This document shows positions 15,351-31,603 of a stretch of DNA of 64,000 nucleotides, piece after piece. How positions within the stretch are numbered: position 1 is the stretch's first letter; the number at the start of each line of letters is the position of its first letter. Source of the DNA: a virus; IMG/VR virus record IMGVR_UViG_3300050343_000285, positions 124,001 through 188,000 of that record. One strand, 5' to 3'. Below the pieces are notes generated by a model. It saw only the letters and a program-made list of their open reading frames with translations. It was not told where the DNA came from and did not search any database. The position numbers and the translations under genes were made by a program.

Positions 15351-15363
15351 TATATAATACACT
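15351..15363 (-). promoter_or_regulatory. Late-type promoter-like box (GTGTATTATA)
   Basis: Minus strand AGTGTATTATATA, 29 bases before the start at 15322. It lies at the end of the NeuA gene, so it would start a transcript of the membrane protein, actin-like and HNH genes. Confidence 0.45.
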
Positions 15364-15997
15364 ATTTCAATAACTTGCTAATTAATTCTAAATCATCATA
15401 AGTATCTACCTGAAAACTCCTACGTATTGGCATCTCAACTATGCCAGTATTCCCATGATACCTAAGATTATTTTTTAGCAAGCTATCTTTAGTTGTTATA
15501 TATAAAGCCCCATTCTCTACCCAATTTTCTTTACATTGTTGTCTCATTGGTCTAGCATGAGGATTCCAGCCATCTGGTTTACCTTCTATTGTCCATCGAG
15601 GAATCCAATGTTCTTTATACGCACTGAATACGGAGTCATATTGACCCATCATCTCTATACCCTTATTTATATCTTCTGGTAGTAATAGGGGAGATGTTGG
15701 CTGAATAAAAACTAATATATCAAATGCAAAAATTCTACAAAAATGTATCAATGCATCTTCACTTTTGCTTGTATCACCTGATATACTATCTGGCCTAATA
15801 ACTACTTTGGCTCCAGCATTTCTTGCGCATGACATAATATCTTCATCATTGGTACTAATAAATACATCGTTAGCTTTAGATTTCTGAGCAGCTTCTATCG
15901 TGTATTGTATTAGAGGTTTACCATTGATATCAATAATATTTTTTTTTGGTATACCCTTGCTTCCACCTCTGGCGAGTATGACTGTTTTTATTTTCAT
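15362..15997 (-). CDS. neuA: CMP-sialic (acylneuraminate) acid cytidylyltransferase-like
   Basis: 211 residues, family-typical. ARGGSKGIPKKN near the N-terminus is the CTP-binding loop; INGKPLIQYTIEAA, FISTNDEDI, RPDSISGDTS and FIQPTSPLL follow in the order seen in NeuA/KdsB-type enzymes. It would activate a nonulosonic acid with CTP. With the NeuB fusion at 21632 and the epimerase at 19055 it forms a near-complete sialic-acid-type pathway. Its last base overlaps the WavE gene start. The exact sugar (Neu5Ac, legionaminic or pseudaminic) cannot be read from the sequence. Confidence 0.88.
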   Translation of the reverse strand: MKIKTVILARGGSKGIPKKNIIDINGKPLIQYTIEAAQKSKANDVFISTNDEDIMSCARNAGAKVVIRPDSISGDTSKSEDALIHFCRIFAFDILVFIQPTSPLLLPEDINKGIEMMGQYDSVFSAYKEHWIPRWTIEGKPDGWNPHARPMRQQCKENWVENGALYITTKDSLLKNNLRYHGNTGIVEMPIRRSFQVDTYDDLELISKLLK

Positions 15998-16620
15998 TAT
16001 TCTGATTTATAAGTGATGTCTTTATTTAATGTAGATATATATTTTTGCATTCGTGGTCTATTCCACCAAAGATCATTATTTTTATTAATATCTTTAAGTA
16101 AAAAATGTAAGTCTTTATTAGTAAAATATTTATTAAAATTATTTAATAATGATATCTCAGGCACTTTAGAAAAATTAATATCATCAATTTCCCATAATTT
16201 AATCATCATATCTATTGGTCCACATTGCATGTAATCAATCATATAGCAATCAAAATTATCTATTTTTTTATAACAATGCCTTCCTATAAAATTCAATTTA
16301 TCAAAATTTATTATATCAATAAGCTTATCTGGATTAGTCGCATAAAGATCGCTCCTTAACTTAATGCATTTGTTAAACCCTAAGTTTTTTGCGATATATA
16401 GTCCGTTTAAAGTGCTAATTTTTTGTAAATTTATATTATGATGACCAAAAACACGAGGGATTTTACTAAAAATAACAGTATCTTCTTTAGTATATTTATC
16501 TCTTTTTATATCATTTATCCAAGTGGAAAAAATTAAATTATGATTTTTCCAACAATCTCTATGTCTTTTAATATTATCACTAGGACCTTGTACAATAATA
16601 CATATATCTTCGTTATTCAT
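15997..16620 (-). CDS. WavE-like glycosyltransferase (LPS type)
   Basis: An N-terminal IIVQGPS, an FSTW strand, and KLRSDLY as the metal-binding region correspond to the WavE family of lipopolysaccharide core enzymes, which opens with a VVQGP motif and carries a KxRSD motif. A second WavE-like protein is at 30839. It overlaps neighbouring genes by a few bases on both sides. The donor is unknown. Confidence 0.7.
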   Translation of the reverse strand: MNNEDICIIVQGPSDNIKRHRDCWKNHNLIFSTWINDIKRDKYTKEDTVIFSKIPRVFGHHNINLQKISTLNGLYIAKNLGFNKCIKLRSDLYATNPDKLIDIINFDKLNFIGRHCYKKIDNFDCYMIDYMQCGPIDMMIKLWEIDDINFSKVPEISLLNNFNKYFTNKDLHFLLKDINKNNDLWWNRPRMQKYISTLNKDITYKSE

Positions 16621-17060
16621 ATAAAAAAACCTAAATAATCAGAACATATTCCGTAAACTTTTTTATTTTCTATAACTCGCTTAGTTTCTTTCTTGCTCTC
16701 ACAAACTATAACACTATTACTAGTTATGTTTTTTCCTGGGTACGTCCAAATAAATTTTTTTGAAGTTAAAGTGAAATCATCTGTCTGATGCCAGAAATAA
16801 TTTAAATTTTCATATTGTTGCATAAATCTTATGGCCTCTAAATTTTTACAATGTAGCCATAATGACTCTTTATGATTAATTAAAAACATATCGCTAATTT
16901 CATATAACGGTTTATCATGGCCTAAGTATAATATATTATTTATTAATCTTAAATCTATTTCTACGTCGTAGCCTTGCTTTATACAAAAAGCAACTTGATC
17001 AGGGTGATTTTCTTTTTTTGACATACCATGAGTATTTCCTCTGTGACTTATATATTTCAT
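16617..17060 (-). CDS. Minimal glycerophosphodiester phosphodiesterase-like protein
   Basis: 147 residues, much shorter than the usual 230-250. The GDPD active-site layout is still visible: ISHRGN with the His-Arg pair, then VEIDLRL (Glu-x-Asp), then LYLGHD, and later WLHCKN. The distal half of the barrel is compressed. Proteins of this kind occur in capsule and LPS loci, where they may remove or transfer glycerol phosphate. Its start overlaps the upstream sulfotransferase end. Confidence 0.65.
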   Translation of the reverse strand: MKYISHRGNTHGMSKKENHPDQVAFCIKQGYDVEIDLRLINNILYLGHDKPLYEISDMFLINHKESLWLHCKNLEAIRFMQQYENLNYFWHQTDDFTLTSKKFIWTYPGKNITSNSVIVCESKKETKRVIENKKVYGICSDYLGFFI

Positions 17061-17683
17061 TTACTTCTTTCATGCAAGATAAAATCTTTATAATATATTG
17101 TTTTAATTTTTTCAATATTATCATTTGATATTAGAATATTTTCTGAAGATGACATATTAAGTTTAGGCATATTTCGATATACGTTAGAAATATTTTCAAT
17201 ATTAATAATTAATTGTTTTTTAAAAAACCAAAAAATATCGGGAATAAAATCACTTTGAAGAAAAAAATGATGAGGTTCTGATATAAAATTTAATTTAGAA
17301 AAATTATTTAATACTATATCACCTATATCTTCGATTATATTAATTTCATTATGTTTTATTTTAATAATATTCTTAAGCCATTCATGCCCATATTGTTTTC
17401 TTGTTCCATTCACAAAATAATGAGATAATAAAGATTTGAATCTTTTAATAGGATCTCTCGTTATGATCATACCTTCGTTATATATAGATAAATTTTGTTT
17501 TAATATCGGTATCTTATTTTTAAAATATTTCTTACATACGAAACTAGCATTTTTAGGCACTTCTACCCAAAGTGTTTTTGTTTGAAAACTTTTACATAAA
17601 CTCATATCCCATAGATACGTAAACTTGTTGCAGTAGGTGCAATTACATGAATTTAGATTTTTTATATCTGTACTTTTAATCAT
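17057..17683 (-). CDS. Sulfotransferase-like protein
   Basis: WVEVPKNASFVCKK fits the 5'-phosphosulfate loop of PAPS-dependent sulfotransferases, and IITRDPIKRFKSLLSHYF fits the 3'-phosphate motif with Arg and Ser. 208 residues. CNCTYCNK at the N-terminus looks like a small metal-binding knuckle not usual for the family. It ends at the GDPD gene and starts inside the HAD fusion gene. Confidence 0.7.
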   Translation of the reverse strand: MIKSTDIKNLNSCNCTYCNKFTYLWDMSLCKSFQTKTLWVEVPKNASFVCKKYFKNKIPILKQNLSIYNEGMIITRDPIKRFKSLLSHYFVNGTRKQYGHEWLKNIIKIKHNEINIIEDIGDIVLNNFSKLNFISEPHHFFLQSDFIPDIFWFFKKQLIINIENISNVYRNMPKLNMSSSENILISNDNIEKIKTIYYKDFILHERSK

Positions 17684-19055
17684 TTGCCTGCTTGCGATCT
17701 ATAAAATTATTTAAGTCTTCTGGAGTGCCTATTCCCCACATTTTATCTACATGAAAAATAGATATTTTTTTATTATCAGCTATTGCTTCATTAAATACAG
17801 GACATACATAAAATTCATTATTATATCTTTTATTTAACTTAATCATTTGCTTAGCGTATTTAACATAATCTGAACCCTTTTTCCAATAGTAAACTCCTAC
17901 TGTTGCTATATTTGATATTGGGTTTTTTTCTGCTACTTCATTTACAAAACCAGTTTCTTTATCTATCTTAACAAAAGACCATTTAGGATGTGTTGATTCA
18001 AATGTTAATATGCCAGCATCTACATTTTGTTCTTGCATTTTATACATAAATTTGCTTGTATTCCATTCCACATATTGATCAGAGTTAGCTATAATTAGAG
18101 GATTGTCATTATCTATTTCTTTTTCTGCTAACAATGTGGTACACGCTGCCCCATCAGTGATACCATCAACTTCTATAACCTTAGGATTTTTTGTAATAAT
18201 ACTTAATAATGAATCTAAATTATATTTTAGTCTATGATTTTTTTGAACAATAAATATATGATTTGCTTTAAAGTTTAAATTATCTACAACTAACTGTATC
18301 ATTGGCTTATTGTCTATTTCTATTAGAGGTTTAGGGAAGGTATAGCCTGCTTGATCAAACCTACTACCTGCACCAGCCATAGGGATTAAAACATTTAGAT
18401 TAGTATCTTCCCATTTTATATTCTGTTTCATGATTGTATTCTCCGTTTTAATTTTTTTTGAAATATTTTCTATTGTAACTTCATCAGGGCTAGATACACG
18501 GTATACATTAGCTCCAGAAATTTCAGCAGCTTTTAATCCATTAGGGGAGTCTTCAACAATTAGGGTTTCATTTGGTACAGTTTTGAGGATTGACATAGCT
18601 TTCCAATAAATTTCAGGATGAGGCTTGGATGTGGATACATCTTCATTTGTTAAAATTAAATCAAAATACTCGATAACACCAATTTTTGATAGCATAGTAT
18701 ATACTGATCTTCTAATAGAATTAGAGCAACATGATATTTTATAATTTTGAGATAAATAATAAAAAACTTCAACTAACCTATTATCTTTATGTAAAGACTC
18801 GAATTTTTGCAAAGTTATACGTTGTTTAAGATCCCATATTTTTGTATGTAAATTTACTGTTAGTCCTCTGTTTTCTGTAAGTAGTTTTAATTTTTCATAA
18901 GTTTTCAATCCATCATATTTTCTATAATGATCTTGTTTTGATATAATATATTGCTCACCAGCTATGGTATATAAGGCTTCATTCAAAGCATCATAATGCA
19001 TATCCTTAGCTTTTACTAAAACCCCATCTAAGTCGAAAATAATATGCTTAATCAT
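17676..19055 (-). CDS. Fusion: HAD phosphatase plus sugar-phosphate nucleotidyltransferase
   Basis: 459 residues in two domains. Residues 1-205 are a HAD hydrolase of the beta-phosphoglucomutase/phosphatase type: nucleophile FDLDGVLV, SCCSNS and a VEDSPNGLKAA loop. Residues 220-455 are an NTP_transferase domain: LIPMAGAGSRF (nucleotide loop), FPKPLIEIDNKPMI, then IANSDQYVEW for metal binding. The pair could dephosphorylate one sugar intermediate and activate another in the same nonulosonic or heptose route. Overlap of the last 8 bases with the sulfotransferase gene shows translational coupling. Confidence 0.85.
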   Translation of the reverse strand: MIKHIIFDLDGVLVKAKDMHYDALNEALYTIAGEQYIISKQDHYRKYDGLKTYEKLKLLTENRGLTVNLHTKIWDLKQRITLQKFESLHKDNRLVEVFYYLSQNYKISCCSNSIRRSVYTMLSKIGVIEYFDLILTNEDVSTSKPHPEIYWKAMSILKTVPNETLIVEDSPNGLKAAEISGANVYRVSSPDEVTIENISKKIKTENTIMKQNIKWEDTNLNVLIPMAGAGSRFDQAGYTFPKPLIEIDNKPMIQLVVDNLNFKANHIFIVQKNHRLKYNLDSLLSIITKNPKVIEVDGITDGAACTTLLAEKEIDNDNPLIIANSDQYVEWNTSKFMYKMQEQNVDAGILTFESTHPKWSFVKIDKETGFVNEVAEKNPISNIATVGVYYWKKGSDYVKYAKQMIKLNKRYNNEFYVCPVFNEAIADNKKISIFHVDKMWGIGTPEDLNNFIDRKQAND

Positions 19056-20047
19056 TATAATTTTTTCTTTAGTATATTTAATATTTTATCGCAAGAGTTG
19101 CCATCACCATATGGGCAAGATTCATTTACTATTTCTATTTTGGTGTTTTTAAAAATTTTATACAAATCCTTTGGAGATTGACACAGTGTAGAGAACGTCC
19201 CAAGACCTTCTTTTCTTTCAGTTGTTGTCCGACAAACTATACTCTTTTTTTGCAAAAATGAAGACTCTTCTTGAAGGCCCCCGCTATCAGTTATTAATAT
19301 ACTACATTTAGCAATTATATCTATACATTTATTATAAGACAAAGGATCTATTACTTTAACGTTTTTGAATACATATTTATATTTTTGTATTTTATTATTT
19401 GGATGCATAGGAAAAATAAATTCTAAATTTTTATACATAGTTGCTATGTCCTCAATAGCTACAAACCAGTCTTTAATTATTTTTAAATTTTCTCTCCTAT
19501 GTAATGTTATTAAAACCTTGTTTTCTAAAGTTGGTTGAATATTTTTTAAATTATCTAAAACTGTGTTACCAACTAAATAAGTTTCGCCAGAATGATAAGA
19601 CTTTATATTATTTAAATTTTCTTGAGTTGGGCATAGATGTATATCTGCCATATTGCTAATAGCAATTCTATTAAACTCTTCTGGATAGGGATGATTAATA
19701 TTTCCTGATCTAAGTCCAGCTTCTAAATGTATAATTGGTATTTGTCTATGAAATGAGGATAAAGCTACAGCAAAAGCAGAGGTTGTATCTCCTTGAATTA
19801 ATGTATGTGTAACATTGTGAAAAATTGGATTAATCTTACTTAGTATAGAAGATATTATTGAATCCAACCTGTTTGCTGAATTATCTATATTAATATATAT
19901 GGGGTTATATTCAGTAATAAATTTATCTATTAACTCGTTATGTTGCTTAATATATAATAGTTTATAATCAATATTATTTTTTATTTTGTCAATTAATGGT
20001 TTAATTTTTATCCATTCTGGTCTTGTCCCGAAAGCTATTAATAGCAT
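19055..20047 (-). CDS. UDP-N-acetylglucosamine 2-epimerase-like (WecB/NeuC type)
   Basis: 330 residues. It opens with IAFGTRPEWIKIKPLI, has HLEAGLRSG with PEEFNR about ten residues later, a TLHRRENL segment and ITDSGGLQEESS near the C-terminus; all are hallmarks of the UDP-GlcNAc 2-epimerase family. It makes UDP-ManNAc, or ManNAc in the hydrolysing NeuC subtype, the precursor for NeuB. Placed between the HAD/nucleotidyltransferase fusion and glycosyltransferases upstream. The NeuC versus WecB choice cannot be settled by eye. Confidence 0.88.
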   Translation of the reverse strand: MLLIAFGTRPEWIKIKPLIDKIKNNIDYKLLYIKQHNELIDKFITEYNPIYINIDNSANRLDSIISSILSKINPIFHNVTHTLIQGDTTSAFAVALSSFHRQIPIIHLEAGLRSGNINHPYPEEFNRIAISNMADIHLCPTQENLNNIKSYHSGETYLVGNTVLDNLKNIQPTLENKVLITLHRRENLKIIKDWFVAIEDIATMYKNLEFIFPMHPNNKIQKYKYVFKNVKVIDPLSYNKCIDIIAKCSILITDSGGLQEESSFLQKKSIVCRTTTERKEGLGTFSTLCQSPKDLYKIFKNTKIEIVNESCPYGDGNSCDKILNILKKKL

Positions 20048-20059
20048 AATTTTAAACCT

Positions 20060-20797
20060 TTATTCTATATTTTTTACTGTATTCCACCCGTTATCAATAG
20101 CATGTTCTACGCAAAGATTTCTTTGACTAAAAAAGGTCTTGTGAGACACTACTGTATTTTTACTAGTTGCAACTCTGTCTCCACCCAGCTTAATAGGTTC
20201 CAAAGATCCATGCAGAGACTTATCATTTTTAGGATGAGGAGGGCAGTAAGTATTAATTTTACCAAATTTTTGAGCCAAATATGAAAACTGTATATCTTCT
20301 CCGTTATCTAACATAAAAGGTTTTTCAAACCACATATATTTCAACCATTCACTTTTAAAAAACCATGCATGACCTACTAAATCAACTCTTTGTATCTCCG
20401 TATTCAAACTGGGCCACCCAGCTCTAGTATGATTTCTATATACTCTAGAATTTAAAATTACACCAGCAGATCCTAATATACCGTTACATTGATTTATAGA
20501 ACTTAAACAATTTTCAAACCATCTTTTTCCAGGAATTGTGTCATCATCAAATACTGCTATATAATCACTTTGTGATAAGAGGGCAGCAGAAAACCTACCA
20601 TAAAACTTCCAATTAAAATTATTATCAAATGTTTTATCAACATCAAAACTCTTTAAGTCTACTTGCTCATTATCCTGATGTAGATTTCTCCATAACCAAA
20701 TATCTGTTGTTTTAATTGTTTGATTCCTAATTGATTCTATTTGTTTTTTAAGATTTTGAGGTCTTCTGTATAAATTTAATATAGTTGTTATAGTCAT
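20060..20797 (-). CDS. Family 2-like glycosyltransferase
   Basis: TTILNLYRRPQNLKKQIESI opens a GT-A fold. The metal/donor motif is AVFDDDTIPGKRW near residue 82, and GNGEDIQFSYL-like residues (DNGEDIQ) form the acceptor region. 245 residues. It overlaps the GT4-like gene upstream by 4 bases. Donor and acceptor unknown. Confidence 0.8.
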   Translation of the reverse strand: MTITTILNLYRRPQNLKKQIESIRNQTIKTTDIWLWRNLHQDNEQVDLKSFDVDKTFDNNFNWKFYGRFSAALLSQSDYIAVFDDDTIPGKRWFENCLSSINQCNGILGSAGVILNSRVYRNHTRAGWPSLNTEIQRVDLVGHAWFFKSEWLKYMWFEKPFMLDNGEDIQFSYLAQKFGKINTYCPPHPKNDKSLHGSLEPIKLGGDRVATSKNTVVSHKTFFSQRNLCVEHAIDNGWNTVKNIE

Positions 20798-21651
20798 AAG
20801 CTTTTGTATATTTCTATATATTCTTCTGCAATATCAATTGGATTCCAGTATTTCTTCATCCACTCTCTAGAATTAACTCCTTTTTGCATAATATAATCTA
20901 TACCTTTATTTTCAACCAAGTTTATTAATACGTTCTCTAGCTCTTGTATTGAACACGACAGGAATGGGTGTCCATCCGACTTGGCTACATTTTTTATTAC
21001 CTTATCAACCCCATCGCTTATTTTACATATAGTCAAACACCCCAAGGATAAACCCTCTAATCCAGATCTATGATATGATCCTGTCATCACTTCGTCTATA
21101 ATTATATTGCATAAAGATTTTCTCTGCCTACACTCTCTGTAACCGATTCCATGAATCACATCTATATCAATTTTTTCTTTGTATTTTTCTTTAAGTTTTT
21201 GCAAAATTGTCGTTGTTTGCCTGTACCCTTTATTATACCATCCTCTATCTTTTTTATTAGATGGTGAATATCCTATTTTTATTTTCTTGTCGTAATATTT
21301 TGGAATATTCATGTCTTCCCAGAGGTCTATTGGATTTCTAACTATTGTACAGTTTTTATATTCTGGTAGTGTGGCATGATACTGTGCTATTACGGCTTTG
21401 GGTATTGCAACGCTTAGATCAACCCTAAATGGTTCGCTGTGATATTGAATAAGTCTTGGTAATTTACTGCTATTAAACATATTTCTATTATGTAAATGAA
21501 TGATATCTAAATATTGTAATAAATTAGTTTTTTCACTTGCATAACCATAACCAAATACACTAGCTTCATGATCTGTATATTTATTTATAATATTAGAAAT
21601 AGCTTCTGGAGCATTAGACAACCCTGTTTGTTTATAGTGTGCTATTTTCAT
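20794..21651 (-). CDS. GT-B glycosyltransferase (GT4-like)
   Basis: The N-terminal half has IHLHNR and QYHSEP and the linker IVRNPIDLWED. The C-terminal half has IGYSPSNKKDRGW and the acidic donor site region EVMTGSYHRSGLEGLSLG, followed by a C-terminal amphipathic helix. This order is typical of GT4-type retaining enzymes. Start at 21651 overlaps the end of the NeuB fusion by 20 bases. Confidence 0.8.
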   Translation of the reverse strand: MKIAHYKQTGLSNAPEAISNIINKYTDHEASVFGYGYASEKTNLLQYLDIIHLHNRNMFNSSKLPRLIQYHSEPFRVDLSVAIPKAVIAQYHATLPEYKNCTIVRNPIDLWEDMNIPKYYDKKIKIGYSPSNKKDRGWYNKGYRQTTTILQKLKEKYKEKIDIDVIHGIGYRECRQRKSLCNIIIDEVMTGSYHRSGLEGLSLGCLTICKISDGVDKVIKNVAKSDGHPFLSCSIQELENVLINLVENKGIDYIMQKGVNSREWMKKYWNPIDIAEEYIEIYKSL

Positions 21652-23156
21652 TTTTTTGTTTTTGAAAAAAATATACAGTATCTATGGAATCTACTAGAGT
21701 AAAACCATAGCTTTTAATCTTATTGATACACTTTTCTTTAAATTTTTTATCTTTCATTAAAAACTGATGTATTTCTATAAGTATCTTGTTACAATTTTGT
21801 ATCACATGAGCGTTTTCCTCTAAAAAAATTAACTCACCACCTTCACAATCTATATTCATGCAGTTAATATTTTCTATATTTTTTTATACTACTTAATTTA
21901 ATACATTCTAAATTATAATCTCTTCTGGTTTTTGCGAAATTTCTACCATTATCAACTCGATCAGCTGACCCAGCAACTATCAAATTATAAGTCTGAAAAT
22001 TAACTATATCTAATGTTTGCGAAATATAACCAAATACCAAGTCTACATTTTTTATATTGTTCTCTTGCATTGTCTTCTGTAATGACTCTTTGAGTTCTGG
22101 ATTGGCTTCCACAGATATGACATGCTTACATTTTCTTGATAATCTTAGAGTAGTAATACCTAAACATGATCCAATCTCTAAAACATTATCCTTTTTATTT
22201 AAATATTTATTAATTAAACATAATTCTGTTTTTTCATATATTTTATTACGAAATCTTTGCATTAGTTCTGGTATGCAATATCTCTTTGGTATAAATATTT
22301 TATTATTTAGATAATTCACGGATTGTATATCTTTTTGTTTTCTTAAACTTTCTCTTTTGATTTTTTCCCCATCTAGTAAAATCCTCGAAGCTGCTGGCTG
22401 GCTCATACTAGATTCAACATCTCTAATACCTTTTACTAATTTAAATAATCCAGCAGGCTCAAGACTCGATAAATGGTCACTACCCCACATATTATGATTA
22501 AGAGTAATGTGCCTTTCGACCCATTCAGCACCTAGAGCCACTGAAGCAAAAGTAGATACTAAGCCATACTCATGACCACTATAGCCTATCTGTCTTGTAG
22601 GCCATCTTTTTTTCAGCCATTTGATATAGTTAAGATTAATTTCATTTACTGGACAAGGATACGTGCTATTTGTATGCATAACAACATCAGCATCGCACGA
22701 GTATATACAGTCTTCTATTTCTTTTTCTGTACTCATACCAGTAGATATTATTAAAGTATTAAACTTTTTTTTAGAATGAACACAAAGATCCCTATCTGTA
22801 ATAACAGCAGAAGGTATTTTTGCAATATTTACATATTTGCTCATTAAATCTGCACTAGGAATATCCCAAACACTAGCAAACATTTTAATATTTTGGCTTT
22901 TAGCATAGTCTATCAATTCAACAATTTGCTCTTCATTAAATTCAATTTTTTCTTTATACTCAAGATATGTCATATCCCCCCAAGGTGTTGATCGCATCTT
23001 GGTCTTTTGGTCTTCTGGAACACAAATGCTTGGCGTTCTTTTTTGAATTTTTACATAATCACAGCCAGAAGCACTAGATATATTAATGAGTTTTTTACAG
23101 GTGTCGATAGAGCCATTGTGGTTGATCCCTATTTCCGCTATAATCTTGGTTTTCAA
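21632..23156 (-). CDS. neuB: Fusion: NeuB-type sialic acid synthase plus FkbM-type methyltransferase (one frameshift)
   Basis: Residues 1-270 form the NeuB TIM barrel: IIAEIGINHNGS, KIQKRTP, MFASVWD, IISTGMST, HTNSTYP, GYSGHE and VERHITL, with all usual blocks. It condenses phosphoenolpyruvate with a mannosamine-type sugar. The usual C-terminal antifreeze/SAF domain is missing. Instead residues from about 290 carry an FkbM methyltransferase: VLEIGSCLGITTL (SAM motif I), VISVEANPE, then, after a slip in a run of seven A (plus 21879-21885), MNIDCEGGELIFLE. Length is a multiple of three plus one, so one base is in question. The shift may be an error, or a natural slip giving a short and a long product. 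Confidence 0.85.
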
Positions 23157-23190
23157 TAGTAAATTCCTTCTCCTTACAAGATAATATCAC

Positions 23191-23204: not shown

Positions 23205-23241
23205 ATTTTAATTCGATCAAGTCATTTATGTATTATAATAT

Positions 23242-23559
23242 TTATTCTATTTTTTTAAGTTCATGTTTTATTTTATTATCTCGATCTAATAAAAAATCTC
23301 CTAAATAAACTTGATTATTTTGCGGATATAATAGAGAAGTTGGTTTTCTGTTTTCGTCAAATAAAGTAATGATATCTTCTTTACTTCTTTCCCAATATCT
23401 TTCATTAGTATTATTGTATATATCTATAGTCCCATCCTTATTTAATTGCATATTGCCATGAAACTTTCTTTCCAATGTAGACGTATTAATACTGTAAAAC
23501 TCCCACAAGTGTATAGTTTTATTGTCAATATCCCCAAAATCTGTTTTAAAAAACTTTAT
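23242..23559 (-). CDS. Hypothetical protein, about 105 aa, unusual start
   Basis: The frame is convincing from KFFKTDFGDIDN through to the end. The first ordinary start codon is a TTG at 23508 with no ribosome binding site. An ATA at 23559-23557 has a perfect AGGAG seven bases upstream and overlaps the previous stop, which suggests either a rare ATA start or a miscalled ATG. No family recognised. The text has Glu, Lys and Asn in excess and several Trp and Tyr. Confidence 0.5.
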   Translation of the reverse strand: MKFFKTDFGDIDNKTIHLWEFYSINTSTLERKFHGNMQLNKDGTIDIYNNTNERYWERSKEDIITLFDENRKPTSLLYPQNNQVYLGDFLLDRDNKIKHELKKIE

Positions 23560-24355
23560 CTTTGTTCTCCTGCATCTTTGTTAAAAAGTCTTTATAGTTT
23601 TCCCAAGAATCTATAATATAGTGTATGTGAGTAAGTCTACCTTTAGGATTAATAGCAGAGTAATCTTCATATATATCATTGGAACTATCAAAAAATGTAC
23701 TTTCGACTATAGGCACTTTACATATTTTTGCTAAGACAGACGCTCCATTATCGGTCCACGAAACCTTATACTTATGTGTCAGCTTTAAATATTGTTCGGT
23801 TCTGTTACATAGTTTAATTTTTTGAACAGCACTCATTGAGTAAAGTGTAGCCTCCCAACTATGTACGAACATTGGCGGACCTTGATGACCATTTAGATCT
23901 GATCTACCAAAAAAGATATTTCTCATTTTCATATCTCTTAAAATCATTTGTTGCTTAATACACATATCTCCAGTTCTTCCGGATATTAAACATATCGGAT
24001 CATTATAGTCATAGAAATCTGATAGTAGTTCATATGTTCTATCTATATCCGTACTAGAATCATCATCAACCTGAAAAATCCATTTATAATTAATCGGATT
24101 TTTATATATATAATTTACAAATCTTAGAGATGTAGGAGCGTCGTTACCACAGTCCGACCATTCATAATCATAATTACTACATAAAGACTTTATAAAGTCT
24201 GGCTCAGGACCATCCGCTAGAAATAATAGTTTAAAGCTAATATTATTATGGTTAGTGAATTTTAAACCATAAATCTCTATAAAATTTTTAATTCTTTTTA
24301 AGAATTTTTCTTGCCTTGGAGATGATAATACAGCTATGATAAAATCATATTTCAT
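23546..24355 (-). CDS. GT-A glycosyltransferase (Fringe/GT31-like)
   Basis: 269 residues. LLFLADGPEPDF, then KWIFQVDDDSSTDI, a DxD-type metal site in a context like Fringe and galactosyltransferase GT31, then an acidic SWTDNGASVLAKIC near the C-terminus. FGRSDLNGHQGPPMFVHSWE forms a likely acceptor loop. It overlaps the small HAD gene upstream by 4 bases. Confidence 0.65.
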   Translation of the reverse strand: MKYDFIIAVLSSPRQEKFLKRIKNFIEIYGLKFTNHNNISFKLLFLADGPEPDFIKSLCSNYDYEWSDCGNDAPTSLRFVNYIYKNPINYKWIFQVDDDSSTDIDRTYELLSDFYDYNDPICLISGRTGDMCIKQQMILRDMKMRNIFFGRSDLNGHQGPPMFVHSWEATLYSMSAVQKIKLCNRTEQYLKLTHKYKVSWTDNGASVLAKICKVPIVESTFFDSSNDIYEDYSAINPKGRLTHIHYIIDSWENYKDFLTKMQENKDKVF

Positions 24356-24651
24356 TTAAAATACTCATTAGAATTTATATTTTTGTCATCTATAAAGATA
24401 TCGTATACTGGTTTACCAAAAAGCATTTGACTATACTTAACAAGCCATCTATTGAATTGTTCAATTGTAACGGCCCTCCAATCAATACCGCTTTTAGTGC
24501 CTCTAGCAGTCCAATAAATAATTGTGTGGCCTTGATTATACAGATCATTCATTTTGGCTATTCTATCATAAATTGGCGTGGCTTCAGAATAGTCCTGACT
24601 ATCTGTAGGTAGTTTACAAATTGTATCATCTATATCTATATATATTATCAT
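24352..24651 (-). CDS. Small HAD-type phosphatase of capsule loci
   Basis: 99 residues with the minimal HAD fold: nucleophile motif YIDIDDTI, WTARG as motif II, and FIDDKNI as the last acidic pair. Proteins of this size occur in capsule and LPS clusters, where they remove phosphate from sugar intermediates. Its start overlaps the stop of the oxygenase gene (TTATGA). Confidence 0.75.
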   Translation of the reverse strand: MIIYIDIDDTICKLPTDSQDYSEATPIYDRIAKMNDLYNQGHTIIYWTARGTKSGIDWRAVTIEQFNRWLVKYSQMLFGKPVYDIFIDDKNINSNEYFK

Positions 24652-25207
24652 AAGTCTACAGCTTTCATCCCTTCATCATATGTTAAAAACGCCGCTATTG
24701 TATATCTAGAGCCTTTAGTTATTTTTGTTACCCCATGAAGACAATCCATACTGCCAAGATGAATCGCAGTATGACCTTTTTTGGGCTTAATTTCTATATT
24801 TCTTTCTGGATAATAAAGCAAACCGCCTTCAAAATCTTCGTTTAAAAATGTTACTATACCAAAATCCCTCCAAGGATAGTCATGAGGAGGACATCCCGGC
24901 GGATTTTCAGCATCGGCATGTGGCTGTAAATCATAACCTTCGGGCCATCTAGCGATGCTAAAATGCTCACAAAAAAACTTTCTTGCTGGTTAAATTCTCT
25001 AACTTGTCTACTACAGATTTAAGAGACTCTAGCATAACATTCTGAACTTCCGGGTTTTTTTACTTGGTGATAGAATAAAGTTCTACCTTGCCAGTAGTTT
25101 TGCTCACTTAATTCTCCAAAATCTTTTGAATTATTATCTAAGTAATCTATAATTAAATTTATATCTTCTTGATTTGTTATATTTTCAAAGACCATAGGAA
25201 ATGTCAT
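24648..25207 (-). CDS. 2-oxoglutarate/Fe(II) oxygenase (prolyl hydroxylase-like), two frame breaks
   Basis: Read from ATG 25207 the frame stops at 25019, but the next frames continue the protein with breaks near 25030 and in a run of seven T at about 24975. The joined product of about 187 residues holds the iron ligands: His and Asp in LQPHADAENPP, His in CLHGVTKITKG, and the 2OG-binding Arg in GSRYTIAAFL. RDFGIVTFLNEDFEGGLL is the expected core strand. It hydroxylates a protein or small substrate; given the Pro-rich giant protein, prolyl hydroxylation is a possibility worth testing. Length is three n plus two. Confidence 0.7.
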
Positions 25208-25222
25208 GACTATGTATCCTCC

Positions 25223-25978
25223 TTAATTATCTAAATGTGTTTGGTGATCTTTAAATTTATTGCCATATACATCCTCACCATTATGATATCTACGACCATT
25301 ACCGTTTTTTTTGTATTTATCTAAATTACCTCTCTCATCCCCATGCTCTAATCCACATTTCATTTCTGCTTCAAGTTGTTCATTTGATAATATGTCTGCT
25401 GAATCTTTTATTTCAAACTTATCTATAAAATGTCTAGGATATGGTATAACACAACCTACTATATCTCCTTTAGATATTCTTATCTTATGATTAGGTCTAG
25501 TAATTCTAATATTATATGTAAAATCTCTTCTAAGATTATCTGTTTCAACTACTCCCGTCATGTGATATAAGCCGTCAATAAAAGTATTAGGAGGATTGAT
25601 GGTCATTAAATTAACGCCATCTGGAGTACGCAAAGAGAATGTTGTTTGTATCGTAATTGTACCCATGCCGAAATGACTGCTGATAGATTGTAATATTTTA
25701 TTTTTTTTAAAATCTTCAGGATCTAAATAAGTTACTTCTACATCGCTAGGACTATCTCCACCATTCCATATAACTTCTATATCATGTATGCTTTTTAATA
25801 TAAAACCATGCTGATTGCCCATAACTAAAGGTAAACAAAAATACGCATGTTTAACAAACCAATCACGTTTAAAATCCCCTTTAAGAGAAGCATATAATTT
25901 ATCAATATTCTCTTTAGTTTGAAACTCACGGGCATGTGCTATTAAACCTATTGTATTTTCTTTTATTAATTTGCTCAT
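25223..25978 (-). CDS. DUF6065-like protein
   Basis: 251 residues. CLPLVMGNQHGFILKS, IEVIWNG, FGMGTITIQTTFSLRTPDGVNL and INPPNTFIDGLYHMTGVVET resemble DUF6065, a family of unknown function often found next to 2OG oxygenases in phages and marine bacteria. The C-terminal 50 residues are Lys/Gly/Asn-rich and probably disordered. It directly precedes the oxygenase. Confidence 0.6.
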   Translation of the reverse strand: MSKLIKENTIGLIAHAREFQTKENIDKLYASLKGDFKRDWFVKHAYFCLPLVMGNQHGFILKSIHDIEVIWNGGDSPSDVEVTYLDPEDFKKNKILQSISSHFGMGTITIQTTFSLRTPDGVNLMTINPPNTFIDGLYHMTGVVETDNLRRDFTYNIRITRPNHKIRISKGDIVGCVIPYPRHFIDKFEIKDSADILSNEQLEAEMKCGLEHGDERGNLDKYKKNGNGRRYHNGEDVYGNKFKDHQTHLDN

Positions 25979-27844
25979 TCCAATCTCATTATTCTGTTCA
26001 CTGGTATAGTTTTAGTATTTACTTCTTCCTTGTATCTTTCTTTCATCCATTTAGTTTTCAGTCTATCTGGAACCATCATAAACCCAAAATAAGCAAGATA
26101 ATGTAAAATACTGGCTTTGGTATAAAAACTCAATACATCGTTTTCGTCTAATGATATTTCAGAAGCACCACTACCATATATAATATCTGGGCCATGAATA
26201 TCATCAAGTTCTACTCCAGAGTTATTTAAAAACCATTAACATAGAATATTGGTCTGATAAATGATCAAACCATTTGTAATCTTTTTCGTTTAGTACTTCT
26301 TTTGCTTTTTTTAATAGTTTTTTTCTTTCTATCTTAATCTTATTGCTAAAATCTTTAATTTTTTCGTGATATATTTTACTGGGTAAGATAATTTGGCCCC
26401 CATTGATTCCGTTACCTCCTAAGACCTTTTTAATTGTTTCGTCGCTCCCCTCGCCTATTACATAAGCACAATCATTTCTATTATATTTATTAAACATATA
26501 CGCTGGATTTTTAGTAAAGATAATATCACTATCTATAACAAATACTTTATCATAGTCAAAATTTGCAAAGAGATGATCCATAGTATTCCATTTAAAAAAG
26601 AAGACATCGCTATTCGTCTCTCTGTTAAAATCAAACTCTATAAAATTAACATCTGGAAAATCTAAAAATAAATTTTCATCACCTTCAAAAACTTTAGTGC
26701 TTTTTAAATCATTTTTTTGTTTATTATAATATACAACTATATCGAATTGTTTTTCTGTTTTATATGAAGTTTTATATAGTGTTTCTAAAGCATAATAAAG
26801 CATACAATAATATTTCATATTATTATCATTATAATCATCAAGAAATAATGCGAAAACGATTGCTCTTGTCTCAACTACATCTCCCACTACTTCACTTGGG
26901 TCTTTAACAAATAAGTTTTGCCAATATTTATTCGGATTATTAATTTTATTTATTTTCAATTTCCAATTTTTAGCGCATTCTATTAATTCATTGTTTCTTA
27001 AATATTTAGGGAGCATGAAACAGGAATGACCAGCAGAATAGTGTACGATACACGTTTTAATATTGTCTATTACGATATCATTATTTTTAACAGAGACATC
27101 ATAAACTGTATTATCTGACTCTAAATTAGAACGAGATGGCGTAGTAAAATCTTCTACTTCTAAATCTCCAAAGTCTTTACTATTTTTAGTTAATATATTT
27201 TGACCACAATATTGCTCATTAAAGAATGTAAAATTATTATATTTATCAAGAGTAATTTCTTTTTTATTTAATAACTTTTTTGCTGCTTTATTGAGTCTAA
27301 TTCTTTCTTTAACAACATCTTTATAGAAATTATTTGCATCTTTATGAAACTTTTTAGGTATTAATAGTTGACCGCTACCCATAGGTGATAATGTGGGGCA
27401 CACCTGTGTTGCTGTATCATCCCAAAGACCATAACCATATATTTTTTTATTATCATATTTATTAAAAATATAATTTGGATTTTTATAGAAAATAACGTCA
27501 CTGTCTATTAAGAAAATCTTATCGTAGTCATACTTGAATACATTTTCTAGATTATGCCATTTGCTCATCCAAGGAGTATTGACACCATTAGGGTCTGTTT
27601 CTATTGTGTACTTTTTATCATAAGTGCTTTCTGTTAATATAAATTTATTTTTAAATTCATTATATATACTATATTCTTCTAAATATTTATATTTTTTAAA
27701 ATCAGGAAATGTATAATATACTCTAACATCAAATGACTCATCATATAAATTATCTAATGTTTTTAATGCATAGTAAAGCATTGCGTAGTATGTTGAATTT
27801 TGATTTAAGCAACATATCGAAAAATACAAACAGTTATTATTCAT
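25975..27844 (-). CDS. Tandem GT-A glycosyltransferase with two related catalytic domains (one frameshift)
   Basis: The start at 27844 (MNNNCLYFSICCLNQ) leaves an 8-base overlap with the previous gene. Two halves are paralogous. The first has YYAMLYYALKTLDNL and KIFLIDSDVIFYKNP; the second has YYCMLYYALETLYK and KVFVIDSDIIFTKNPAYMFNKY. Each holds a DSD metal site as in GT8/glycogenin-type folds. The frame stops at 26222, but after a slip in a T5 run it continues as FLNNSGVELDDIHGPDIIYG to the stop at 25975, completing the second domain. About 623 residues. Such bidomain enzymes often polymerise an alternating sugar chain. Confidence 0.78.
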
Positions 27845-28826
27845 ATTCTTTATTATCCTTATAAAATTTATGAATAAATTTTTCTTTATATAGTTTATCA
27901 ATATCAATATCAACTGAAGATATTTCTTTTAATTTATTTTTTAATATTTTTGTATGCTTTCTTTGTGTAGATACAGCATCCTGTCTTATCCTTTGTCTTT
28001 GCTCTAAGGTGGGATAATTAAGTAGCCATTTTCCTACACATTCGGCTACACTTTCTGGGCTATCGTCTGCTATCAAACAGTTAGTACTTGTAAAAAAAGT
28101 ATCTCTACCACCTTTTGATTTAGTAGAGACTATAGGTAATCCGCATAATAAATATTCTATACTACTATACATCGCTCCTTCGCTACTAGAGAGACATAAC
28201 CCCACCCGTGATCTGTTTAATACATCGTTAACTTGATTCTTATTTATCAAGTTATGATATAAAGTAAAAGGATTATTCTGATTAGCCATTAATAACATAT
28301 GACCCTTTTTAGTGTATGGATGAGGCAATCTATTTTCTGAAGTTAAATATAGAATGTTGCTCAAATTATAAGAAAGATGATGTCTTTTGTATGGACACAT
28401 TCTGGCTGTATATACACAATCCCACATTTTATCACAAGACTGTATATTAAAAATTTTCCTACTTACGGTGGCATTGTGATTACATAATATTCCAGAAAAT
28501 CTACTGCCATATTCTTTTGGTATCCTATTTAATGTTTCAATATCATTACAGCATATAACTATATTAAGATCAGTAGTCTCTCCTAATATCTGATTAATTT
28601 GAGGTTTGAGTGCCTTCCAAGACGCATCATTCAATGTGCGATATTGCCATAAAAATAATGTATAAGGATTGTCTTGGTTTTTAATGTACCTTATTGTATT
28701 GCTTAATAAATTTTTATTTTTAGGATTCAGAGGTATATTTTTTTTATCTTTTAGTATTCCTGTCGTACCAAATAATACGTTTATCTCTGGTATTTCAAAC
28801 AATTTATTCAATTTATGCCTCCACAA
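27837..28826 (-). CDS. GT-B glycosyltransferase (GT1/GT4-like)
   Basis: 329 residues. The donor site is SSSEGAMYSSIEYLLCGLPIVS, with the Glu-x7-Glu motif of retaining GT4 enzymes, followed by STKSKGGRD and NCLIADDSPESVAECV. An earlier FLWQYRTL and ICCNDIETL belong to the N-terminal Rossmann domain. It overlaps the cupin gene upstream by 19 bases. Confidence 0.78.
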   Translation of the reverse strand: MWRHKLNKLFEIPEINVLFGTTGILKDKKNIPLNPKNKNLLSNTIRYIKNQDNPYTLFLWQYRTLNDASWKALKPQINQILGETTDLNIVICCNDIETLNRIPKEYGSRFSGILCNHNATVSRKIFNIQSCDKMWDCVYTARMCPYKRHHLSYNLSNILYLTSENRLPHPYTKKGHMLLMANQNNPFTLYHNLINKNQVNDVLNRSRVGLCLSSSEGAMYSSIEYLLCGLPIVSTKSKGGRDTFFTSTNCLIADDSPESVAECVGKWLLNYPTLEQRQRIRQDAVSTQRKHTKILKNKLKEISSVDIDIDKLYKEKFIHKFYKDNKEYE

Positions 28827-29155
28827 TTTTCTCTAATGATATCATTAGACAAAAGTTCAGACCAATAAATTTCGTAGGCTACTGTTTCCTCAAGAGCCTC
28901 GAACATATGATATTCTTTAGGCTTAACAACAGACATTTGCTTTGATGCTATTATAGTTTCGTCTTTTAGGTCGTAATCATTTTTCCATATACTAATTTTT
29001 AAAGAGCCTTTTTCTATAAAGAATGCATTATACTTATTATCATGCTTATGTTTAGAACAGTAACCTCCTTTATTAACTTCTATACGATGAATTTCAACAT
29101 TATTTTTTAAAAAAAGTTGTTGAGTTAAACCCCATATTTTCCCCTGAATATTCAT
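28808..29155 (-). CDS. Cupin-domain protein
   Basis: 115 residues with a single cupin barrel: motif 1 as GGYCSKHKHDNKYNAFFIEKG with two His and one Glu-like position, and motif 2 as KPKEYHMFEAL with His. It is most like small cupins that epimerise or isomerise sugars or bind sugar nucleotides in polysaccharide loci. Catalysis is uncertain. Confidence 0.72.
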   Translation of the reverse strand: MNIQGKIWGLTQQLFLKNNVEIHRIEVNKGGYCSKHKHDNKYNAFFIEKGSLKISIWKNDYDLKDETIIASKQMSVVKPKEYHMFEALEETVAYEIYWSELLSNDIIRENCGGIN

Positions 29156-29764
29156 TTATATAGCCTTTATATTTTTAGGTATATATTCGTAATTATATTT
29201 AATTAAAAGTTTTTTATATTTATTCATAAAATTTTCTACAGTTTTGGATTGTATATTTAAAGGATATAAACTATGCTTATTGATTTTATCTTTATGAATT
29301 ACATTGTATCCTTTTAGTATTTGAGATAGATCTTGCTGCAAGTTTTCCTGCCTACCTATGAGCCAAGCATCTTTTGTATAATTATTAAAAAAAGTTTCCA
29401 AGAAATTAGAATGGTAGTTGGCGCATCTCTGCACCGTATCATTTAGATCGTCTTCATTTATACATTCATGCCAATGGCTCCAATTATTTTTACTTTCCCA
29501 ATTATTCTTGGGTTTAGAGTTTTGACTATCTCTACAATTTGCATGTTTCCAGTGTCCCCATACTGAACAAACTAAAGAAAGGGGATGCCTAATAAAAGTA
29601 AAATATTTTTTACTAGTACTGGTTTTTTCCTTGACAACAAAATATGGATCGTGTTTTTCACAAATGTTTTTCCCATTACATTGGCGACTTAATATATTTT
29701 CAATATAAGTACCACCAGTTTTGGGCATATGTATAAATATCATATCATTTAGTTCAATAGCCAT
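29156..29764 (-). CDS. Sulfotransferase-like protein
   Basis: IFIHMPKTGGTYIENIL is a clear 5'-phosphosulfate loop, and FTFIRHPLSLVCSVWGHW is the 3'-phosphate motif. WLIGRQENLQQD fits the conserved C-terminal Arg/Glu region of Sulfotransfer_2/3-type enzymes. 202 residues. It shares one base with the next sulfotransferase, forming a tandem pair. Confidence 0.8.
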   Translation of the reverse strand: MAIELNDMIFIHMPKTGGTYIENILSRQCNGKNICEKHDPYFVVKEKTSTSKKYFTFIRHPLSLVCSVWGHWKHANCRDSQNSKPKNNWESKNNWSHWHECINEDDLNDTVQRCANYHSNFLETFFNNYTKDAWLIGRQENLQQDLSQILKGYNVIHKDKINKHSLYPLNIQSKTVENFMNKYKKLLIKYNYEYIPKNIKAI

Positions 29765-30327
29765 TATATATACTCGTAATTAAATCTTTCAAAATCCTCT
29801 GTGTAGTAATCATAAAGATTATTTTTCTGCTCTTTAGTTATATTAATATTTATTATCTGGGTCTCGTTTGTTTTTTTTATCTTAACAGGTATGCCTTTGT
29901 CTATTAGAAATCTTTTTACATCTAAATCATATTGTTCGAATTTTATGACATTATCTGCATGTTCTATACAGTTATAAGGATGGGTTATTGGTATAGCATG
30001 ATGTTTAAAACTTTCAATTCTACCATATTCATTATCATATGCAAGGCTATCATCTTTTAAATAATTTATCGCAGTATCTATTGTTAAGTCTCTAATTTCC
30101 GGCGGGAACACGGTTGTTCCAAATTTAAACATTTTAAAAGCAGATAAAAACCTTTCTATCGGATGTCTGCAAAAACCTATCTTATTATAATTAATATATT
30201 CATTAGGTATATATCCTTTATACCTTTCTGTAAATTTTACACCTGAATATCTTCTAATAGATGATCCTCCACACTTCGGTATATGTATTATAATTAATTT
30301 ATATTTATGGTTAATAAAATTACTCAT
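29764..30327 (-). CDS. Sulfotransferase-like protein
   Basis: IIIHIPKCGGSSIRR is the 5'-phosphosulfate loop and IGFCRHPIERFLSAFKMF the 3'-phosphate motif, in family order. 187 residues. Sequence differs substantially from its downstream tandem neighbour, so they are not recent duplicates. Confidence 0.82.
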   Translation of the reverse strand: MSNFINHKYKLIIIHIPKCGGSSIRRYSGVKFTERYKGYIPNEYINYNKIGFCRHPIERFLSAFKMFKFGTTVFPPEIRDLTIDTAINYLKDDSLAYDNEYGRIESFKHHAIPITHPYNCIEHADNVIKFEQYDLDVKRFLIDKGIPVKIKKTNETQIININITKEQKNNLYDYYTEDFERFNYEYI

Positions 30328-30842
30328 ATTACTAATTTAATAATTACACAATCATCATTTTTGGGTGTAGCATTTATAGCAGCAGGATTTATGAGATTAT
30401 ATATTCTATCATACCACCAATGCATATTTTTAATAGTTTTATGACAGTTGGTTTTATCTGGTAATAAGATAGTTGCCTCTCTAGTTGAAATAGCATGATA
30501 CATAAATTTTGGTTTTAGATATAACATTTCCTCAAATATATTATCTAGTTCATCTTCATATATATGTTCTAACAAATCGGTAGTAATAACTAAATCATAT
30601 TTTTCTTTGGGTATTTTTTCTTTCCCAGGATAGCATGGGTCAAATTCATCAATTAATACATTTCGCTTTCTTAAACTTTTCGCTAAGGAACCAGTACCAG
30701 AGCCAAAATCTAAAACAGTTTGCGCTCCAGTTTGACGTATAAGGTTTAATATATCTTCAGCGTACTCTAAGCCAGTGTCTCCATAATTACGCTCCTGATG
30801 CAACTGCTTGTATAATTTAAGGTCTTTATAATGATATTTCAT
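30324..30842 (-). CDS. Class I SAM-dependent methyltransferase
   Basis: 172 residues. TVLDFGSGTGSLAKSL is the SAM loop, IDEFDPCYPG the acidic strand, and YDLVITTDLLEHIYED the post-motif II typical of Methyltransf_23. HAISTREATILLPD follows. The substrate is unknown; it sits between sulfotransferase and WavE genes with 4-base overlaps on both sides. Confidence 0.8.
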   Translation of the reverse strand: MKYHYKDLKLYKQLHQERNYGDTGLEYAEDILNLIRQTGAQTVLDFGSGTGSLAKSLRKRNVLIDEFDPCYPGKEKIPKEKYDLVITTDLLEHIYEDELDNIFEEMLYLKPKFMYHAISTREATILLPDKTNCHKTIKNMHWWYDRIYNLINPAAINATPKNDDCVIIKLVI

Positions 30843-31603
30843 ACTATTTCCTTAATATTTTGATATAATTTATTACCATCGTGGCATCCACTTTTTACTT
30901 CTTTTCTTCCACAAGGATATGGTTCCCTAGAACGCTTAAAACCTCGACCTTCGGATGATTGACCAGAGTGTAAATGTTTTGGTAATTCTCTACAGGGTGT
31001 TATATAAACATACCTACGAAAAAATTCTTTCCATTTTGATTGATTAAATTCATTAGGTTCCCTAGCCAACATAAAAAAATAACCAAGTATCTGTTCACAT
31101 ATTTCAACATCCAACTCTTTAAAGTTCTCTTTATGACAATATTCTATTATATTTTTTAACGCTTTGATCATATTTTTTTTAGAATCTAAAAATAAATGAC
31201 CAGATAAACAAAAGGGGTGAATATTCCAAAAACCATTATCTGTTGTATGAAGTCTATTAGGGAATTTTATGAAATTATCTATCATTTTATCCAGATTAGG
31301 ATATAATTCATCGCTTCTTGTTTTTAAAATATATTCATTTTTTGCAAGTAAAGAACCCTGTAATAATGTTTTTGTTATATAATATATACTACCATGATTA
31401 ATAATATTTGACATATCATCAGGATAGTCGCTAGTGACTAATTTAAATTTTGCATTTTTTGATTTTTTGTTCAAAAGAAAATAGTTCTCGCCTGTTGACC
31501 ACGTTGAGACTATAACTTCTCCAAAATCTTGGTAACAGTCTATAGCCTCATAGGTTCTTTCGTCCAGCGGCCCTTGTATGACTACCGATATATTTTCTCT
31601 CAT
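30839..31603 (-). CDS. WavE-like glycosyltransferase
   Basis: 254 residues opening with ISVVIQGPLDE and carrying VIVSTWSTGE and ILKTRSDELYP, the WavE-type signatures. The C-terminal HLHSGQSSEGRGFKRSREPY is basic and unique to this copy. Same family as 15997-16620 but clearly diverged. It overlaps the RuvB-like gene by 4 bases, so DNA repair and glycan genes share one transcript here. Confidence 0.72.
   Translation of the reverse strand: MRENISVVIQGPLDERTYEAIDCYQDFGEVIVSTWSTGENYFLLNKKSKNAKFKLVTSDYPDDMSNIINHGSIYYITKTLLQGSLLAKNEYILKTRSDELYPNLDKMIDNFIKFPNRLHTTDNGFWNIHPFCLSGHLFLDSKKNMIKALKNIIEYCHKENFKELDVEICEQILGYFFMLAREPNEFNQSKWKEFFRRYVYITPCRELPKHLHSGQSSEGRGFKRSREPYPCGRKEVKSGCHDGNKLYQNIKEIV

Follow-up and report, generated by a model that had tools for sequence, protein, structure and literature searches.

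A gene set predicted to make, activate and transfer a nonulosonic acid in a large marine phage

Does a bacteriophage that carries NeuB- and NeuA-type genes among glycosyltransferases and sulfotransferases make its own sialic acid-like sugar and, if so, by which route and onto which acceptor? The presence of neuA, neuB and LPS genes on phages is already known from surveys; in marine viruses such genes have been counted but seldom interpreted, and some gene catalogues filter them out. We examined a 64,000-nucleotide stretch (the window) of a 194,787-bp IMG/VR record. Leaving the acceptor aside, we consider it probable (roughly 0.6) that phage enzymes make, activate and transfer a nonulosonate.

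Results

The contig is that of a large marine phage: a terminase match, a long tail-tape-type ORF and whole-genome synteny with another viral contig (G010) mark it as such, and PHROGs put names to hardly any head or tail genes. Planctomycete-type DUF1501/DUF1553 genes at the end of the record fall within syntenic contig G010, so a bacterial chromosome or chimera was ruled out, and the phage origin assumed in the preliminary description holds. The host is probably a planctomycete. A search for a reverse transcriptase of a diversity-generating element found none. The record lacks roughly 8 kb at its ends. An independent contig, L012, matches 18 kb of it at 99.9% identity. Some ORF ends given earlier are artefacts, because the window has single extra homopolymer bases relative to L012 at 21879, 23548, 24971, 25055 and 26228.

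The features are collected in Table 1. Positions 15362–31603 form, as first described, a single minus-strand block of tightly packed or overlapping genes, and the same gene types (GT11, GT92, GT25, GT2 and sulfotransferases) do recur at 7–12 and 44–61 kb. Within the block, the HAD/nucleotidyltransferase fusion (HAD and NTP_transferase matches) and the methyltransferases (PF13489 and the FkbM part of the NeuB fusion) were borne out. Of at least seven glycosyltransferases claimed, two, at 20060–20797 and 27837–28826, exceed Pfam cut-offs; Pfam searches with those at 15997, 20794, 23546 and 30839 were uninformative, and that at 26222 stays below cut-off. Of three sulfotransferases, 29764–30327 (Pfam) and 29156–29764 (profile) stood and 17057–17683 did not; across the window, Sulfotransfer_1/2 matches over cut-off begin at 29764, 47334, 53257 and 60453. 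The GDPD-like and cupin labels found no backing, the former having no Pfam match and the latter only one below cut-off. The sole solved relative of the 2OG-Fe(II) oxygenase is a prolyl 3-hydroxylase.

Table 1. Sugar-, sulfate- and acceptor-related features of the window
Position	Strand	Feature	Evidence
1803–6918	minus	giant Thr/Pro/Ala-rich mucin- or extensin-like protein, Cys-rich end	frame broken inside repeats
9018–9686	minus	candidate sialyltransferase-fold/MptE-like transferase	MptE-like 20.8 bits, below cut-off
9871–10725	minus	GT11 (fucosyltransferase family)	PF01531 68 bits
10703–11560	minus	nucleotide-diphospho-sugar transferase family	PF03407
15362–15997	minus	NeuA-type CMP-nonulosonate cytidylyltransferase	PF02348 92 bits
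15997–16620	minus	WavE-like putative glycosyltransferase	by eye; no Pfam match
16617–17060	minus	"GDPD-like" protein, function not assigned	phrog_34507 (unknown function)
17057–17683	minus	possible sulfotransferase	E 0.014
17676–19055	minus	HAD (beta-phosphoglucomutase-like) + sugar-1-phosphate nucleotidyltransferase fusion	
19055–20047	minus	WecB-type non-hydrolysing UDP-GlcNAc 2-epimerase	TIGR00236 236.9 bits
20060–20797	minus	GT2 glycosyltransferase	PF00535 30.6 bits
20794–21651	minus	GT4-like putative glycosyltransferase	by eye; relative in L010 42%
21632–23156	minus	SAF-less NeuB (~273 aa) + FkbM-type methyltransferase fusion	PF03102 202 bits; fkbM_fam
23242–24355	minus	putative glycosyltransferase, 370 aa when intact	L012:8803-9915
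24352–24651	minus	predicted small capless HAD phosphatase, capsule-biosynthesis type	TIGR01689 below cut-off
24648–25207	minus	2OG-Fe(II) oxygenase, 185 aa when intact	PF13640 34 bits
25223–25978	minus	DUF6065 protein	
26222–27913	minus	tandem putative glycosyltransferase, 645 aa when intact	PF11051 below cut-off; L012:5248-7185
27837–28826	minus	GT4-type glycosyltransferase	PF00534 30.7 bits
28808–29155	minus	cupin-like protein	below cut-off
29156–29764	minus	sulfotransferase	own-phage sulfotransferase profile E 1e-15; phrog_3347
29764–30327	minus	sulfotransferase (Sulfotransfer_2)	47.4 bits
30324–30842	minus	methyltransferase	PF13489
30839–31603	minus	WavE-like putative glycosyltransferase	by eye; no Pfam match
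44750–45607	minus	GT92	PF01697 92 bits
47334–48164	minus	sulfotransferase (Sulfotransfer_1)	78.7 bits
48139–49989	minus	GT2-GT25 fusion	
51788–52516	minus	GT25	
52509–53270	minus	GT2	
53257–53895	minus	sulfotransferase (Sulfotransfer_2)	61 bits
60453–61058	minus	sulfotransferase (Sulfotransfer_2)	74.2 bits

The partner in the NeuB fusion reported earlier is an FkbM methyltransferase. Window ORF 21864–23156 continues in a frame-shifted piece at 21632–21859, the break being the extra base at 21879, and an uninterrupted 507-aa ORF in L012 (10001–11524) rules out an assembly artefact. The fusion is private to this phage, relatives having standalone NeuB proteins of 273–282 aa. The catalytic barrel looks complete and aligns with solved NeuB, PseI and SpsE enzymes; residues matching E25, K53, K129, H215, E234, H236 and D247 of meningococcal NeuB are invariant in 7 viral sequences. 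The SAF domain, which in known NeuB contacts ManNAc, is absent from this phage's NeuB and from the viral relatives of its clade, an architecture also seen in the 290-aa enzyme of PDB entry 6ncs; we found no tested substrate for SAF-less NeuBs. In a quick tree the viral NeuBs cluster together (18 viral and 2 marine MAG rows, SH-aLRT 97). The nearest bacterial NeuBs also lack SAF, and those tested adjoin or are fused to a cytidylyltransferase–HAD protein; thus a HAD, albeit a different one, recurs with such a NeuB in bacteria.

The NeuA call was upheld: among solved proteins it comes closest to NeuA/CMAS (E 2e-30), with KdsB at 3e-13, and the motif RQ..ENGA.Y is conserved. Placement of the NeuA/NeuB pair in KDO synthesis had been named as a refutation of the sialic acid reading; the profile check instead gives nonulosonate-type enzymes, and a KDO assignment was rejected on the far better NeuA/CMAS match. 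Judged from sequence, it is highly probable that phage enzymes produce a CMP-nonulosonate.

The small HAD retains DxDxT and DD motifs across 9 sequences, its profile matches the capsule biosynthesis protein 9iqw (E 6e-19), and G010 has a copy that is 86% identical. It does not resemble KdsC, and its substrate could be a different sugar phosphate. The preliminary description mentioned neither this gene nor the candidate transferase at 9018–9686 nor the Thr/Pro-rich protein.

For the candidate transferase, a low-confidence model (pLDDT 55) gave human ST8SiaIII as best fold match (E 2e-3), and in G010 the gene immediately upstream of NeuB is an orthologue. The sialyltransferase-like (A4) family of the relatives is predicted to fold like CstI/CstII (Foldseek E 1.3e-6, probability 1.00) and shares motif positions with GT42 and the MptE-like/Maf family. 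It differs from GT42 in giving no PF06002 match in a Pfam search, and the in-window protein is weakly MptE-like; as the family profile matched no PDB sequence, the likeness appears only through fold comparison. Transfer of the nonulosonate by a sialyltransferase-like enzyme is a reasonably probable step.

A UDP-GlcNAc 2-epimerase is present, as claimed. It scores 236.9 bits with the WecB model (cut-off 210) and 55 with the NeuC model (cut-off 236), so its product should be UDP-ManNAc. UDP-ManNAc is not a NeuB substrate, and the epimerase would therefore not feed NeuB.

The enzyme set was found again in about 20 other marine viral contigs. SAF-less NeuB and NeuA occur together, often overlapping, in 21 of 24 viral groups, a count that takes in L010, L011 and L019, where the NeuA call is weaker. 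Of the same 24, 14 have a small capsule-type HAD, 15 have a sialyltransferase-like protein, and nine combine all four. Glycosyltransferase sets differ strongly among the relatives, whereas the NeuB/NeuA/HAD core is kept.

A hydrophobicity scan of the record revealed no multi-pass flippase, polymerase, transporter or initiating protein. At a strict threshold, no ORF in the record has at least three hydrophobic segments, compared with 120 of 1165 in bacterial flanks, counts that can miss membrane proteins and are affected by frameshifts that break some genes. The glycan is thus probably built in the cytosol, where phage proteins would be the likeliest acceptors. The giant Thr/Pro-rich protein beside the cluster is the first candidate; its orthologue in G010, the closest relative, has the same N-terminus and lies near NeuB/NeuA (G010:116182-117168), the tie to the cluster being seen in just two related phages.

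Discussion

We propose that the SAF-less NeuB would join PEP to a hexose, most likely phosphorylated (e.g. mannose-6-phosphate), that the small HAD would remove the 9-phosphate, that NeuA, the step best supported by sequence, would form the CMP sugar, and that a sialyltransferase-fold enzyme, with fold support in relatives and weak support in this phage, may place the nonulosonate on a glycan. That glycan would be assembled by the phage's other glycosyltransferases, sulfotransferases and methyltransferases, with the WecB epimerase and the HAD–nucleotidyltransferase as separate accessories supplying other nucleotide sugars. We put the phosphorylated, Kdn-like route at even odds. Kdn-9-P synthase, HAD phosphatase and CMP-Kdn synthetase are established in Bacteroides thetaiotaomicron (BT1714, BT1713, BT1715) and partly in Prymnesium parvum (PMC6200933), where a NeuB-family synthase, HAD phosphatase and CMP-synthetase likewise need no NeuC; in contrast, the set described here is phage-borne, its HAD is small and capsule-type, its NeuB is fused to a methyltransferase, and the substrate of its synthase is predicted. 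Chloroflexi and Actinobacteria have SAF-less NeuBs of the same architecture with cytidylyltransferase and HAD adjoining, but in these bacteria NeuA and the HAD form one fused protein, the HAD being of another family (Hydrolase_3), and the phage NeuBs form their own cluster. Kdn polymers occur in Streptomyces walls (PMC11481543).

The preliminary description had NeuB, NeuC/WecB and NeuA acting in series. A canonical CMP-Neu5Ac pathway of this kind, with the WecB homologue serving as NeuC to release free ManNAc, draws on the epimerase, NeuB and NeuA sharing one block, but is very unlikely: the epimerase is non-hydrolysing by model, five related viral contigs keep NeuB and NeuA with no epimerase counterpart, and the NeuB lacks its ManNAc-contacting domain. 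On the model scores and the missing epimerase in those five contigs, WecB was rejected as a pathway member. Chance acquisition of sugar genes that turn over and play no part in infection would fit the varying order and content of the cluster among relatives and the exclusion of such islands as suspect from a viral AMG catalogue (PMC11360552). We hold it improbable, as a virus-borne clade that keeps its partners across about 20 viral groups, with its active sites conserved, speaks for selection. Modification of phage DNA bases by the glycosyltransferases, suggested by soluble transferases in a phage with no evident export proteins, is barely credible; a non-systematic look recognised no base-hydroxylating gene. 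To our knowledge, sulfotransferases, CMP-nonulosonate and GT11 enzymes are not parts of DNA hypermodification.

Remodelling of the host envelope has the same synthesis steps as our reading and a different acceptor: phage CMP-nonulosonate and transferases would alter host surface polysaccharide via host lipid carriers and exporters, for instance to block superinfection. This is the usual reading of phage-borne surface-polysaccharide genes (PMC5332604, PMC9123017), soluble glycosyltransferases could use host lipid-linked sugars, and a planctomycete is the probable host. Against it stand the apparent lack of flippase, polymerase, initiating and export proteins in the record and the variable glycosyltransferase set beside a constant core, and we regard it as a serious but doubtful alternative. 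Transfer of the nonulosonate onto phage proteins is itself tentative, if quite possible, with polymers of the host surface close behind as acceptors. More speculative, and on balance unlikely, is the fuller proposal that phage enzymes attach O-glycans to giant Thr/Pro-rich virion or adhesin proteins in the host cytosol, giving a self-made mucin-like glycoprotein whose caps are fucose, sulfate and a nonulosonic acid that the phage itself produces.

Capsid glycans of a virus's own making are known from some large algal viruses. A literature search on phages with sulfotransferases and virion glycosylation found no paper, and, as far as our search reached, the virus-borne clade of SAF-less NeuBs, accompanied by a HAD and a sialyltransferase-like protein, is a new variation on known phage-borne sugar genes. 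Marine and jumbo phage LPS/capsule sets also include such genes, and one environmental viral genome encodes Gmd, WcaG and NeuA (PMC5332604, PMC9123017). Here, in contrast, NeuB, HAD and NeuA come together repeatedly with a candidate transferase, alongside sulfotransferases and a Thr/Pro-rich protein. This virus-borne synthase–phosphatase–activator–transferase set is a compact, testable enzyme group, and it raises the question of whether there are bacteriophages that put sialic acid-like sugars on their own particles. The mucin-like glycoprotein, if real, would give a bacterial virus a charged glycan coat of its own making, and the recurrence of the set in other marine viral contigs suggests that some bacterial viruses may build their own sugar coats.

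Phage record and gene content of the sugar cluster

The 194,787-bp IMG/VR record, of which the window covers positions 124001–188000, carries probable structural genes in a plus-strand module at 18–64 kb, with a weak terminase match and a 2932-aa ORF; the remainder lies mostly on the minus strand. Another viral contig, G010, has 127 of 254 called ORFs in common with the record, in circularly permuted order, and identity reached 80% for the terminase and 92% for a 333-aa ORF of the structural module (at 35592). Because the record ends map ~8 kb apart on G010, the full phage genome is probably near 203 kb.

Across 18 kb, the window was 99.9% identical to the independent contig L012, with five extra bases in the window, all within homopolymers. 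Fragmentation of the rIIA, ribonucleotide reductase and DNA polymerase genes probably reflects homopolymer indels of this record; the first two are unbroken in relatives. The phage also carries RuvB (~70% identity in two related viral contigs) and tmRNA genes.

Of the cluster genes proposed in the preliminary description, NeuA, the NeuB fusion, the 2-epimerase, the HAD–nucleotidyltransferase, the methyltransferases, two glycosyltransferases and two sulfotransferases were backed by profile or by intact L012 ORFs. Several further glycosyltransferases and the third sulfotransferase had been read by eye and were not confirmed, and the GDPD-like protein, likewise assigned by eye, gained no support from the profile search.

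Coordinates of the features discussed
Feature	Sequence	Position
Thr/Pro/Ala-rich protein (minus strand)	window	1803–6918
Distant sialyltransferase-like candidate	window	9018–9686
Sugar cluster (minus strand)	window	15362–31603
NeuA	window	15362–15997
2-Epimerase	window	19055–20047
NeuB–FkbM fusion	window	21632–23156
Small HAD	window	24352–24651
RuvB	window	31600–32496
Fragmented rIIA, ribonucleotide reductase and DNA polymerase genes	window; record	36607–37483; 71.7–87.7 kb
DUF1559 protein	window	39888–40853
tmRNA, tag ADTSVLALAA	window	54420–54760
LamG-type giant protein (just beyond window)	record	116074–123897
PSCyt1–PSCyt2–PSD1 (DUF1549/DUF1553), DUF1501, ferredoxin (beyond window)	record	192292–194635
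Same gene set	G010	54527–59212
Second NeuB-like protein	L119	8570–9388
Second NeuB-like protein	L122	8609–9349
Second NeuB-like protein	L124	5449–6189
Second NeuB-like protein	L128	8639–9406
NeuB–xylose-isomerase-like barrel fusion, 651 aa	L128	6049–8001

A probable viral nonulosonate gene set

The viral NeuB barrel aligned with solved NeuB, PseI and SpsE enzymes, and positions equivalent to known catalytic residues were invariant in seven viral sequences. The C-terminal SAF domain is absent from NeuB of the phage and of its viral relatives in the clade, an architecture that is not unique, since a SAF-less 290-aa enzyme has been solved (6ncs). Only in this phage does NeuB continue in frame into an FkbM methyltransferase, a fusion that L012 encodes as 507 aa. 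In a quick NeuB tree, 18 viral rows formed a group that also took in two marine MAG contigs (support 97). Four contigs encode a second, divergent NeuB-like protein (~250 aa) directly after NeuA, and one carries a further NeuB fusion.

By sequence comparison, the cytidylyltransferase of the cluster is NeuA-type. Contigs with NeuB/NeuA relatives, after merging near-identical ones and adding two phage records, formed 24 viral groups: 21 had both NeuB and NeuA (a weaker paralogue call for NeuA of L010, L011 and L019), 14 the small HAD, 15 a sialyltransferase-like protein and nine all four. NeuB and NeuA genes frequently overlap in the viral contigs. Among 80 bacterial loci having the closest NeuBs, the small HAD occurred at one, and the two sialyltransferase-like profiles had matches at one and two, respectively; at those bacterial loci that were tested, NeuB instead adjoins or is joined to a cytidylyltransferase that carries a different HAD as a fused domain. 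Mainly because two different HADs thus accompany one NeuB type, we prefer a phosphorylated route, as established for Kdn (PMC6200933), as the one that the viral NeuB/HAD/NeuA set would use.

The model of the sialyltransferase-like family found in relatives was fair (pLDDT 78, pTM 0.81), and of its best sixteen solved matches, fifteen were CstI/CstII entries and the other was a human sialyltransferase (top E 1.3e-6). The phage's own candidate is more distant, with an MptE-like match below cut-off; its low-confidence model matched human ST8SiaIII best (E 2e-3), and its G010 orthologue (67% identity) lies directly upstream of NeuB.

Profile models placed the 2-epimerase in the WecB-type, non-hydrolysing class, and five relatives that encode both NeuB and NeuA lack a counterpart. 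It is predicted to serve another glycan branch, as are the GMD, GDP-fucose synthase and UDP-galactopyranose mutase encoded elsewhere in the record.

In viral metagenomes, neuA and neuB have already been counted (PMC3877843, PMC10653327), NeuA has been reported together with Gmd, WcaG and KdsA from one environmental viral genome (PMC5332604), and marine jumbo phages commonly carry LPS genes (PMC9123017). Related NeuB occurred in only three INPHARED records. Phage neuA, neuB and LPS genes are known from surveys. Within the literature searched, we found no account of a SAF-less NeuB that viruses carry alongside HAD and sialyltransferase-like partners, and to that extent the combination is new.

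Host, export and candidate acceptor

The DUF1559 protein has a pilin-type N-terminus with the N-terminal methylation motif and ~70% identity in two other viral contigs; the PSCyt1–PSCyt2–PSD1, DUF1501 and ferredoxin genes also lie within phage genomes. To our knowledge, the DUF1559, PSCyt1–PSCyt2–PSD1 and DUF1501 families are restricted to planctomycetes, and their carriage by the phages suggests planctomycete hosts. Compared between two phages, the planctomycete-type PSCyt1–PSCyt2–PSD1 and DUF1501 genes and the ferredoxin gene are 95–99% identical, and the structural genes 53–92%.

A hydrophobicity scan of the record's ORFs at a strict threshold found none with at least three segments; looser thresholds gave only two, the long ORF of tape-measure type and a small ORF on the plus strand. 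For comparison, 40 of 1165 ORFs in bacterial flanks had at least eight. A flippase, polymerase or transporter is therefore not evident in the record. Adjoining the cluster is the Thr/Pro/Ala-rich protein (~1700 residues, with a Cys-rich end), whose G010 orthologue shares its N-terminus and lies 3 kb from NeuA; the second giant protein combines a LamG-type domain with Thr/Pro linkers. The sole solved relative of the cluster's 2OG-oxygenase is a prolyl 3-hydroxylase. Together, these giant proteins and the oxygenase make a mucin- or extensin-like protein a possible acceptor.
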